Assembly (NCBI GenBank): GCA_030445695.1
Contig: JASUTF010000025.1
Coordinates: 1-6,354 of the forward strand
Reading direction: 5' to 3'
Source: Candidatus Iainarchaeum sp.
GTDB taxonomy: Archaea > Iainarchaeota > Iainarchaeia > JAADDC01
Length of the DNA stretch: 6,354 nucleotides
In this document: positions 1 to 6,255 of the stretch, one piece after another
Numbering within the stretch: the stretch's first letter is position 1
Layout of the letters: each line of letters starts with the position of its first letter
Translations under genes and position numbers: made by a program
The notes under the pieces: generated by a model
Told to the model about the DNA's origin: nothing
Databases searched by the model: none
What the model saw: the letters and a program-made list of their open reading frames with translations, nothing else

Positions 1-386
1 TGCACGTGCACGTGCCCGGGGAGACCGGCTCCCGCCACGTCGCCTATGTTGATGCCCACGTTGAAACCGTCTGGACGGAACGCCTCGCGGAGCTTCCCCT
101 CTGCAAATGCAATGAGTTCTGCTATTTCTGCCCTTTCCTCCTTCGTCAGCTCTGCCCAATCGCCCACGTGCCGGTACGGTGCAATCATGAGGTGTCCCGT
201 GTTGTATGGGTAGCGGTTCATGATGATAAACGCGTGTTCGCCCCTGTAAAGCACCAGTGCTTCTTCATCCCTCTCTGGGTTCTTCGCCGCGTCGCAGAGG
301 AAGCATCCCTCCTTCTCCTTCTTGTTCTTGAAGCCCGCGATATACTTCCATCTCCACGGCGTGAACACGGTTCTCAACACCTTCAT
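1..386 (-). CDS. HIT-family nucleotide hydrolase/transferase (5' part, truncated by window edge)
   Basis: The first 128 codons of a HIT (histidine triad) protein are visible; the 3' end lies off the left edge. Family members hydrolyse or transfer nucleotides from dinucleoside polyphosphates or nucleoside phosphoramidates in the cytoplasm. Seen: an N-terminal TPWRWKYI segment like the 'APWRMEYI' start of Ap4A-type HIT proteins; a CFLC pair (C28, C31), a likely zinc site; NRYPYNTGHLMIAPYRH (57-73), the conserved core strand; NVGINIGDVAGAGLPGHVHV (109-128), leading into the HxHxH triad. H125 and H127 are present and the third His codon is cut after CA. The ATG at 386 overlaps the stop of the PAP2-kinase gene (ATGA, 383-386) and is preceded by GGAGGT, so it is the second gene of a translationally coupled operon. 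Family certain; substrate unknown. Confidence 0.95.
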   Translation of the reverse strand, partial: MKVLRTVFTPWRWKYIAGFKNKKEKEGCFLCDAAKNPERDEEALVLYRGEHAFIIMNRYPYNTGHLMIAPYRHVGDWAELTKEERAEIAELIAFAEGKLREAFRPDGFNVGINIGDVAGAGLPGHVHV

Positions 387-1291
387 GCAATCAACCTCCC
401 CACAAGAGCAACTGCAACGGGGATGGAGATGTTATCGTCAATGTATGGCAGAAGCTCCACAATGGAAACAACCACGGGCAGCCAGAGTGGTGTCTCCGTG
501 GCGATGGCAACGAGTAGGCCCACAAAGAACCCACCGAGGGTTCCGTAGAAACTCTTCCCCCTCGTGCGGAAGTACTTGCCCACCATGGTTGCGGTGGAGT
601 CGACATAAGCCAAATACCACGTGGCCTTCCACGCCCAGGAATGGTTGATAGCCGCCGCCGCGAAAACACCAAGAACAAAGAGAAATGCACCTTTTCCAGT
701 GCCGTCACGGTCGAAGAAGTCAAGGAACGGTTTCACCAAAGTTCTTTCACGCTCGTGGTAGATGATCGCACCCACCAGAAGCGCAGCTGCAAGAAGTGCG
801 AGTCCAAGCTTCCAGTTCAAATAAAGGAGCAAACCAAGCAACGCGCCGGAACCCATATGGAACGCCTGGCGATCCCACTCAAAGCCCACGCGTTCCTTTC
901 CCTTCTTGTAGAGCCAGAGCGATAGACCAGCAAAGAGAAATCCGCCCAGAACGTCCACCCACGTGTGCACGCCGGCGAGAACACGCAGGGCGCCCATGAG
1001 AACGGCATAAATGAATGTAAACACGTTAGGCACAAGGAAGAAAAGCAGAGATGCGTAGGCCGTGTGGAACGACGGGAAAGAGTAGGGATCAAAGGATACA
1101 TCATCATCTGGTCTCGGCACCTTCAGAACAAACTTGGTGAGTAGAACAATGCCAGACAGAAAGAGATATGCCGAGAGAAGCACCATGGCCCTTTTGTATT
1201 CCTTTCTGTAGAAGTACCGGGCAAACACGAGAACGGGTATCAACAGCAGGGCGTTGGAAAGCAGCTTCGCCACGGCAGGTTCAAGAAGCAT
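383..1291 (-). CDS. PAP2 lipid phosphatase fused to dolichol/phytol kinase-like domain
   Basis: A 302-residue integral membrane protein with two catalytic modules. Residues 1-130 are a PAP2-type phosphatase with all three motifs: K53-x6-R60-P61, P73-S-F-H76 (nucleophile-activating His) and R103-x5-H109-x3-D113. Residues ~138-302 match the CTP-dependent dolichol kinase (Sec59)/phytol kinase (VTE5) family: R141-Q-A-F-H145 (family form RKxxH), DRDGTGKGAF (194-203), D231-S-T-A-T-M-V-G-K239, GKSFYGTLGGFF (245-256), and a late VELLPYIDDNISIP (278-291). Each half has several hydrophobic membrane segments. The known activities would be removal of phosphate from a polyprenyl (pyro)phosphate and phosphorylation of a polyprenol, so recycling of the dolichyl phosphate carrier is the natural inference; isoprenoid alcohol salvage is an alternative. 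The gene follows glmS after 30 bp, with its own TATA-like box, and is coupled to the HIT gene by ATGA. Domain calls are firm; the lipid substrate is inferred. Confidence 0.92.
   Translation of the reverse strand: MLLEPAVAKLLSNALLLIPVLVFARYFYRKEYKRAMVLLSAYLFLSGIVLLTKFVLKVPRPDDDVSFDPYSFPSFHTAYASLLFFLVPNVFTFIYAVLMGALRVLAGVHTWVDVLGGFLFAGLSLWLYKKGKERVGFEWDRQAFHMGSGALLGLLLYLNWKLGLALLAAALLVGAIIYHERERTLVKPFLDFFDRDGTGKGAFLFVLGVFAAAAINHSWAWKATWYLAYVDSTATMVGKYFRTRGKSFYGTLGGFFVGLLVAIATETPLWLPVVVSIVELLPYIDDNISIPVAVALVGRLIA
394..399 (-). promoter_or_regulatory. Shine-Dalgarno of the HIT gene
   Basis: The minus strand reads GGAGGT seven nucleotides before the ATG at 386, inside the last codons of the upstream gene. 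It is the clearest ribosome-binding site next to a recognised gene in the window. It fixes the HIT start and contrasts with the leaderless first genes of the other transcripts. Confidence 0.85.
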
Positions 1292-3048: not shown

Positions 3049-3069
3049 ACGTCAAAATAAATTTTGATC

Positions 3070-3957
3070 ATGCTCCTCGTAAACAATGACCGCGTGGCAA
3101 AATTCGCGCAACTGAGGGGGCCGATGAATATCTCGGAAACGAAGCTGCGGATCCTCGAGGCAATCAAAGAGAAACCCAAAGACCTGACAAGCATTGCAGA
3201 AGAGTTGGGAACCACGGAACAGAACGTTCACTACCATCTGGGGCCACTGGTACGTGAAGGGATCGTAGAAGTAATCCACGAGGGAAAAAAGCTCTATATG
3301 CTAAAAGCAGATGCCTTTGGCTACATCCTCCGCGAAGGAATGCCGTATAAAGGAAGGGCAACACCGCACATGATCGAGGCATTCTTCCACCCCCTTGCGA
3401 AGGACGGTGCACTGAACGCCTACGTCGTGGTTGGCGCCCCTGATCCCCACGGCGCTTTCATGCAACGAGCGAGGGACGGACACTACGTGGGCGTCCTCGG
3501 ATTGTTCCTCGGGCAGCACTTCACGTTCTCGGACTTCCCTGTCATGGTAGATACAGACGTGCGTGCAGAACGCCTTCTGGATCAGAACTTGATTCTACTG
3601 GGCGGACCCGCGGCGAACACGGCAACCTGGGAACTCCTGGACCGGAGAAAAATGTTCTTCGACGTGGATAACCCGTGGATGATCAAGGGAAGAAAAGACA
3701 TGTATGGGGACGACAACTACGGGCTCGTGGCAAAGTTCAGAAATCCTTACAATGAAGAAAACTGGGTTTTACTTATAGCGGGCGTCCGTGCAGTTGGAAC
3801 AAAGGCCGCGGTGATTGGAATAACCAACCACTGGGAGGAACTCCTGGCAAACTATCGGGAAGGCAAAGAGTTCTACTGGATCGTCCAGGGCTACGACAGG
3901 AACGCGGACGGGCACATTGACTTCATACAGGTAAAAGAATATGGAGAGATACGCTAA
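3070..3957 (+). CDS. winged-helix regulator with S-layer-protein-like C-terminal domain
   Basis: A 295-residue protein with no signal peptide or membrane segment, so probably cytoplasmic. Residues ~20-80 form an ArsR-like winged helix: ETKLRILEAIKEKP, then SIAEELGTTEQNVHYHLGPL (41-60) as the HTH with its recognition helix, then a wing ending GKKLYML. The C-terminal half resembles the conserved C-terminal region of archaeal S-layer proteins: NLILLGGPAAN (173-183), a GLVAKFRNPYNEENWVLLIAG block (218-238), VGTKAAVIGI (242-251), and a final VQGYDRNADGHIDFIQVKE segment (272-290) with a dockerin/EF-hand-like D-x-N-x-D-G-x-I-D loop. I infer a DNA-binding regulator whose sensor descends from, or mimics, the S-layer fold; its ligand is unknown. 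Start: ATG 3070 fits TATA spacing. A TTG at 3064 gives poorer spacing; ATG 3124, preceded by GAGGGGG, is a real alternative that starts right at the HTH. Divergent from glmS, overlaps the MFS gene tail by 4 bp. Confidence 0.85.
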   Translation: MLLVNNDRVAKFAQLRGPMNISETKLRILEAIKEKPKDLTSIAEELGTTEQNVHYHLGPLVREGIVEVIHEGKKLYMLKADAFGYILREGMPYKGRATPHMIEAFFHPLAKDGALNAYVVVGAPDPHGAFMQRARDGHYVGVLGLFLGQHFTFSDFPVMVDTDVRAERLLDQNLILLGGPAANTATWELLDRRKMFFDVDNPWMIKGRKDMYGDDNYGLVAKFRNPYNEENWVLLIAGVRAVGTKAAVIGITNHWEELLANYREGKEFYWIVQGYDRNADGHIDFIQVKEYGEIR

Positions 3958-5102: not shown

Positions 5103-5636
5103 ATGCGCATCCGCCTCGAGGTGAAAGAAGGGGAAGGACGAAAAAAGGTTATAGAGGGCTTTGGCCCGCCATCGAGATTCAACACGATTGGACGCAGCCA
5201 CATATATATCCGGCTGTTCAGCGGCAGAATACCAGCAGATGGTATAAAACCGGAGCGTTCAAGCAAGCAGCCGGAAATTCTATTCCACAGCGGAAAAGAA
5301 GGATCCATAGAAAGAGCAAGCGTGGTGTTCGGAGGCAAAGTTTATCACTACGACGTGATTCCAGAGAACGTCCTGAAGGGTGACGCATACAGAATTTTCA
5401 AGGCATTGGAGGCCCTCATGAAGGGAAACAAAGAACCGCTGAAGAAGCTTGCAAGAGAATGGCGGGGAGAGACAGAGATAAGGTTAAAGGACAGTAAAGA
5501 CAGAGCAAGGATAACACTTCGCATCCACGCTGCAGACATAAAAGATATGCTGGAACGCCACACGCACCTGAAACTTGGGATAGAGAGGCAGGCAACGCTC
5601 CCGGAGTTCGGAATAAGGATCAGGCGCGGCCGGTAG
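5103..5636 (+). CDS. hypothetical basic protein
   Basis: Not recognised. A 177-residue soluble protein with no signal peptide, membrane segment or cysteine. It is rich in Lys/Arg (ending GIRIRRGR), so binding to nucleic acid or another acidic partner is possible but unproven. Apparent layout: a beta-rich N-terminus (MRIRLEVKEGEGRKKVIEG; IGRSHIYIRLFSGRIP, 29-44), more strands around 58-85 (EILFHSG; ASVVFGGKVYHYDVIP), a helix at ~93-119, strands at 123-142 (TEIRLKD; ARITLRIH), and a short helix at 143-152. The ATG at 5103 is about 25 bp from the A/T element and has no real Shine-Dalgarno, so it is likely leaderless. The 3' end overlaps the next convergent gene by 17 bp. Codon use looks like that of its neighbours, supporting a real gene. 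Confidence 0.85.
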   Translation: MRIRLEVKEGEGRKKVIEGFGPPSRFNTIGRSHIYIRLFSGRIPADGIKPERSSKQPEILFHSGKEGSIERASVVFGGKVYHYDVIPENVLKGDAYRIFKALEALMKGNKEPLKKLAREWRGETEIRLKDSKDRARITLRIHAADIKDMLERHTHLKLGIERQATLPEFGIRIRRGR

Positions 5637-6255
5637 TCATGTGCTTTATGAGCTCCTCAAGAAAACGCCTGTAGTGAACCCGGGCAGGATCTACCCGGTT
5701 GAGTGCCCGGTAGACGTCCTCCGGCCGCGGTCGAAGTTCAATGATTGCTTTATACACCTCGTGGGCCAGATCAGGGTCAAACCGCTTATACTGGTGGTAT
5801 ATGCCGTGAAAGAATGATTTATCGAGTCGTACCCCGGCTTCCATCGCAGCGAGTGCGGCGGGAATTGCTATCAGATGTGCGTTTGCGGCCCGCACTCTCT
5901 GAGAAAGTTTCTTCATCTCCCTGTGCTCTGGAATAAGGTATATCTCGCTTACTTTGAGCAGAAGGGAGAGTTCGTCAGGGAAAAGGGTAGCGTTCTCCAT
6001 GGGCTCCGGAGCGTCTTCCCGTAAACTCTCATTAACTGGTTCGAGCGTGCCATCTGACTCAGTAAAGGGCCTACGGACCCGACGTATAGCTGCCATCGTG
6101 GAAACATCGCGCAAGGCAGCCCGAAACGACTGTGCCTTACCCATCAGACGCTCATACAGTTCAAGATTGCGGCGAGCAAAGAGTGTTCGGCTCACGTTCG
6201 CCACATGGTGTCTGTAGCGCACAAGAAATTCTTCTGCAGCTGCCTTGCGATCCAC
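5620..6255 (-). CDS. hypothetical helical protein
   Basis: Not recognised. A 211-residue protein, apparently mostly alpha-helical, with no cysteine and no clear membrane segment. Two helical regions (~3-63, with Arg-rich LFARRNLELYERLMGK and AAIRRVRR; and ~93-205) are joined by an acidic, probably flexible linker (64-90, ESDGTLEPVNESLREDAPEP). The C-terminal part has KKLSQRVRAANAHLIAIPAA (115-134), a run of small residues AALAAMEAG, then FFHGIYHQYKRFDPDLAHEV (148-167). The start is GTG at 6255: no other ATG, GTG or TTG lies in the short open frame upstream, and a TATA-like element is centred 25.5 bp away, so a leaderless GTG start is likely. Tail-to-tail overlap of 17 bp with the plus-strand unknown gene. 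Confidence 0.83.
   Translation of the reverse strand: MDRKAAAEEFLVRYRHHVANVSRTLFARRNLELYERLMGKAQSFRAALRDVSTMAAIRRVRRPFTESDGTLEPVNESLREDAPEPMENATLFPDELSLLLKVSEIYLIPEHREMKKLSQRVRAANAHLIAIPAALAAMEAGVRLDKSFFHGIYHQYKRFDPDLAHEVYKAIIELRPRPEDVYRALNRVDPARVHYRRFLEELIKHMTTGRA

Follow-up and report, generated by a model that had tools for sequence, protein, structure and literature searches.

The window, meaning the whole stretch of DNA analyzed here, is a 6,354-base contig from an archaeal MAG of 664 kb that is 88.6% complete (G000). On its minus strand, positions 383 to 1291 hold one gene encoding a PAP2 domain followed by a dolichol-kinase-like domain. In line with the single chain of the original prediction, it is one open frame, with an ATG start and a product of 302 amino acids, and it is intact in six genomes. 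The gene lies in an apparent operon in the order glmS, fusion, and HIT gene, all on the minus strand. The upstream glmS (1322 to 2998; NF001484/TIGR01135 above cut-off) is separated from the fusion by a 30-bp gap. The HIT-family gene (3 to 386; PF01230) is truncated by the contig end, and its ATG overlaps the fusion stop codon by 4 bases. Counting the window, glmS is linked to the fusion in four of the five genus members, and the HIT gene is likewise a conserved neighbor in 4/5. Divergent from glmS, a plus-strand gene (3064 to 3957) encodes an odd combination of DNA-binding and S-layer-like domains in one protein, namely, an ArsR/HTH_20-type winged helix followed by an S_layer_C match (PF05124, 30.5 bits; cut-off, 23.9). 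Its adjacency to glmS is kept in three sister genomes. Farther along, two open reading frames overlap on opposite strands (5103 to 5636, plus; 5620 to 6255, minus), neither with a clear match in the family libraries.

Based on sequence and the predicted model, the N-terminal half can be firmly assigned to the PAP2 phosphatases by family. Residues 1 to 131 (899 to 1291, minus strand) match PF01569 in Pfam with 29.6 bits, above the cut-off of 27.2. The three PAP2 motifs claimed in the original prediction are complete: K53-x6-R60-P61 (1109 to 1135), P73-S-F-H76 (1064 to 1075), and R103-x5-H109-x3-D113 (953 to 985), all on the minus strand. The catalytic residues are identical across the six fusion homologues (K53, R60, S74, H76, R103, H109, and D113), P73 is invariant as well, and P61 is missing in L006 only. 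The phenylalanine of PSFH, previously flagged as a deviation from PSGH, turned out to be ordinary, as other PAP2s of these archaea carry PSxH in which x is not glycine. In the predicted model, residues 1 to 131 fold like LpxE (VIA Z of 14.3 over 129 residues, 3.0 Å), Bacillus subtilis YodM (5jki; Z of 13.4), and Escherichia coli PgpB with farnesyl pyrophosphate (Z of 12.2). Motifs, fold (Z of 12 to 14), and a probable outward-facing site, judged by topology, are thus common to the fusion and the membrane PAP2s PgpB, BcrC, LpxE, and eukaryotic Cwh8/DOLPP1. It differs from these in that its PAP2 part is minimal (approximately 130 residues), has PSFH, and is directly followed by a second enzyme-like domain.

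The C-terminal half (residues 137 to 302; 386 to 883, minus strand) was harder to place. It had been expected that each half, searched separately, would match its own family; this is true of the PAP2 half, whereas the C-terminal half alone has no kinase-family match up to an E value of 1 in Pfam and NCBIfam, and none in PHROGs. Applied naively, the refutation criterion attached to the original prediction would have rejected it. Its homology emerges only via standalone relatives of about 185 to 210 amino acids, which a whole-genome search recovered from the phylum's other families. A profile-profile comparison of the fusion set with the standalone set (hhalign) gave 99.65% probability and an E value of 4.3e-25. 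The standalone relatives match CTP_transf_1 (PF01148) at up to 5e-5 and 23.6 bits, just under the cut-off of 24, and have only unrelated weak matches in NCBIfam. Profiles of the mixed and standalone sets align with the CdsA motif region, with weak E values (0.05 for one of them).

The structure prediction points in the same direction. An AlphaFold2 model of the whole protein (pLDDT of 96.5, pTM of 0.92) was built from alignment A5, in which the last helix is misplaced in 11 PAP2-only rows, and not from A6, in which the PAP2-only rows are misaligned. For the kinase-like domain, CdsA is the only outstanding solved fold, with Z values of 7.1 to 7.6. With the half alone, VIA-align ranks CdsA first (Z of 7.6, 149 of 170 residues, root mean square deviation of 5.6 Å), ahead of a next match at 4.9; a Z of 7 to 8, under 8 here, is modest for helical proteins, and no DOLK structure was found for comparison. 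Foldseek alone gave no significant match for this domain and no CdsA among the matches listed; CdsA surfaced only with VIA-align. From sequence and model together, there is good reason to place the C-terminal half in the dolichol-kinase-like/CTP transferase superfamily, a membership that implies no particular activity.

The motifs of this superfamily are kept in part. The charged clamp E138xxR141Q142xxH145 (857 to 880), DxxAxxxG in the form D231xxA234xxxG238 (578 to 601), and the motif E279...D285-D286-N287xxxP291 (419 to 457) are all present on the minus strand, as in Sec59/DOLK, VTE5/FOLK, and Dgk1 (CTP_transf_1), with which the fusion may also have a CdsA-like fold in common. The equivalents of E138, R141, H145, R195, D231, G238, D286, and P291 are invariant in all 16 standalone relatives and are retained with few exceptions in the fusions. 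E138, R141, and H145 are identical in 22/22 fusion and standalone proteins, and R195, in a predicted cytosolic loop (707 to 709, minus strand), is invariant in both groups. Within the fusions, D231, E279, D285, and N287 are invariant together with E138, R141, H145, R195, and D286. The glutamine before H145, singled out earlier as unusual, is in fact the commonest form, since RQ occurs in 12 of the 16 standalone relatives. In contrast, the description of the signature as near-complete was overstated, and the losses had gone unremarked. The KTxEG glutamate, gone from the derived K246-S-F-Y-G-T (539 to 556, minus strand), is found in none of the six fusions in either alignment register, versus 15/16 standalone proteins. 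Only one of the six fusions retains the second GxxxG glycine (R, N, Q, A, G, and V occupy the position), and only one the ER..EK glutamate, versus 16/16 standalone proteins in both cases. Furthermore, the fusions carry VD where GD is expected. Thus, compared to dolichol and prenol kinases, the fusion has no KTxEG glutamate, second GxxxG glycine, or GD glycine, and stands behind a PAP2 domain.

The domain combination itself is real and conserved. Each of the five genus members carries the full fusion, as does one of the five sister-genus genomes (G008), at 33 to 69% identity, and a fusion fragment at a contig end of G009 is perhaps a second sister-genus case. The proposed survey for the same domain order did recover it in six genomes, confined to one family among the 87 genomes of the phylum; in the remainder no fusion was found, and any kinase-like gene identified there is encoded on its own. 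Two peptide patterns run over 84,980 species matched in this family only, although such patterns would miss divergent fusions. The relatives that carry names are DPANN-type MAGs labeled Diapherotrites or Micrarchaeota, plus one labeled Euryarchaeota, which makes the phylum assignment uncertain. Because six separate genomes have the frame intact, it cannot be put down to chance, a frameshift, or a false join in the assembly. The tree shows one origin of the fusion (98/93 support), with the sister-genus row on a very long branch, and the kinase-like half has its ancestry among the standalone dolichol-kinase-like proteins of this phylum. Synonymous sites are near-saturated or saturated, and non-synonymous distances amount to 0.2 to 0.4 in both halves. 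As non-synonymous change is far below synonymous change, both halves are under purifying selection, and in close pairs the kinase-like half is more conserved than the PAP2 half.

In the model, supported by hydropathy, helix 111 to 135 (887 to 961, minus strand) spans the membrane from one active site to the other, with the positively charged stretch KKGKER at its end. K53, H76, R103, H109, and D113 gather at one end of the PAP2 helices, and E138, R141, and H145 begin the helix after KKGKER. Positive charges cluster at residues 25 to 34, 129 to 134, and 242 to 246, and acidic residues at 62 to 68. Following the helix order and the positive-inside rule, the simplest reading would be an external phosphatase site and a cytosolic kinase-like site. 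This topology suits both families, since the PAP2 site for polyprenyl pyrophosphate is lumenal or periplasmic and prenol kinases use cytosolic CTP. With the sites apparently on opposite membrane faces, a single lipid could not reach both without crossing the bilayer.

Taken together, we propose with moderate confidence that the fusion is a polytopic membrane enzyme of carrier-lipid (dolichol/polyprenol) phosphate metabolism, with topology, substrates, CTP use, and kinase activity all putative. Most likely, the outer-face PAP2 site would hydrolyze the polyprenyl or dolichyl pyrophosphate released by the AglB/STT3 oligosaccharyltransferase, and the cytosolic-face kinase-like site would phosphorylate polyprenol on the inner leaflet, with CTP as the donor by family. 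Both halves together would fill the polyprenyl monophosphate pool from either side of the membrane. The genomic context supports a polyprenyl/dolichyl phosphate role: a cis-prenyltransferase and an STT3/AglB homologue are encoded in the genus, and GPT in four sister genomes, with none found in the incomplete genome of the window. BacA was not found in any of the 10 family genomes and occurs in 11 of 27 other genomes, and glmS in the operon, together with the neighboring IPP isomerase and AglB in the sister genus, further supports this role. Besides the fusion, no PAP2 with the full motif was found in G000, whose second PAP2 (G000:C3, L067:3533-4315) is a PAP2_3-type membrane protein without motif residues K and R. 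In two genomes such a gene (this one and its counterpart L068:3444-4205) sits within the cluster of ribosomal protein genes. Pathway context and neighbors fit a carrier lipid and prove none, and no sequence feature of the fusion reveals the substrate.

The lost KTxEG glutamate, second GxxxG glycine, and GD glycine argue against the carrier-lipid reading. They lend weight to an alternative in which only the PAP2 half is catalytic. The kinase-like half, its own catalysis lost, would then be a partner that binds lipid or nucleotide, or a scaffold holding the phosphatase close to carrier-lipid enzymes of the cytosol. The residues in question are (near-)invariant in the 16 standalone relatives, and a second DolK-like paralogue is encoded in the same genomes (5/5 genus members and G008). 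This paralogue is more conserved than the kinase-like half of the fusion (mean column identity of 76% versus 64%) and could be the actual kinase of these genomes. In G000 it corresponds to L071:1504-2142 (G000:C2:39997-40638; alignment A9), which shows RK..H, GDG, and DDN and has no library match; like the fusion, it is without the KTxEG glutamate. Nevertheless, a non-catalytic role seems doubtful given the nine residues still invariant in the fusions, from E138 to N287, and the purifying selection on this half, which exceeds the PAP2 half in conservation in close pairs. The kinase activity is putative; no assayed enzyme of this kinase clade was found in the literature, which also weighs against the carrier-lipid reading.

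Both halves might instead be active on other isoprenoids, such as geranylgeraniol and geranylgeranyl phosphates or archaeol-type lipids, in isoprenoid salvage or phospholipid turnover. The PAP2 and kinase superfamilies each have members with varied lipid substrates. An IPP isomerase (type 1) lies close by in the sister genus, and CarS was found in the family, so membrane lipid synthesis is present. Moreover, PfPolK-type prenol kinases take farnesol and geranylgeraniol as substrates, together with CTP (PMC10849223). However, the neighboring glmS and, in the sister genus, an STT3/AglB homologue 2 kb away, together with the lack of another full-motif polyprenyl pyrophosphate phosphatase, point to glycan carriers, which makes this reading rather unlikely. 

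Returning to the carrier-lipid role, the original prediction described a self-contained recycling enzyme. The fusion, the membership of both families, and, by context, the polyprenyl/dolichyl phosphate role hold up; "self-contained" goes too far in view of the lost kinase residues, the second DolK-like paralogue, and active sites apparently on opposite faces. An extension in which the outer PAP2 site would yield a neutral alcohol that crosses unaided, for the inner kinase to remake the monophosphate with no polyprenyl-phosphate flippase needed, is improbable: a translocase search gave it no support, and with DedA-family proteins in 37/37 genomes searched (DUF368 was not found in the fusion-bearing family), such a route would be an addition and not a necessity.

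A known protein named as a lipid phosphatase plus lipid kinase has a soluble kinase of the DAGK_cat type, with a fold unrelated to the membrane kinase-like half described here. No description of a PAP2 and dolichol-kinase-like combination was found in the literature searched, in which the one paper naming both dolichol kinase and PAP2 is on an unrelated subject. DUF368-PAP2, PAP2-DedA, and DUF368-BacA fusions have been described previously (PMC9876793). As proposed for our case, these join a carrier-lipid pyrophosphatase to another carrier-lipid membrane domain; there the partner is a candidate translocase, whereas here it is a kinase-like domain. The fusion bears on the unsettled question of how archaeal dolichyl phosphate is synthesized and returned to the cytosolic leaflet: the existence of dolichol kinase orthologues in most prokaryotes has been doubted, and the last archaeal steps are incompletely known (Lombard 2016; PMC5088576). 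A natural fusion with a full-motif PAP2 connects this kinase-like family with the phosphate chemistry of carrier lipids and offers both membrane sides for testing in a compact single protein. If the kinase half is active, a single enzyme would run two opposing reactions, one at each face of the membrane.

Among the phylum's other families, the separate dolichol-kinase-like gene often comes right after the Nop5-fibrillarin pair (L008:814-2037, L007, L009, L012, L015, and L096). The fibrillarin operon of the fusion-bearing family has no kinase gene there, suggesting that the fusion may have replaced the fibrillarin-linked gene. The placement of a lipid gene beside rRNA-modification genes is a puzzling link in its own right.
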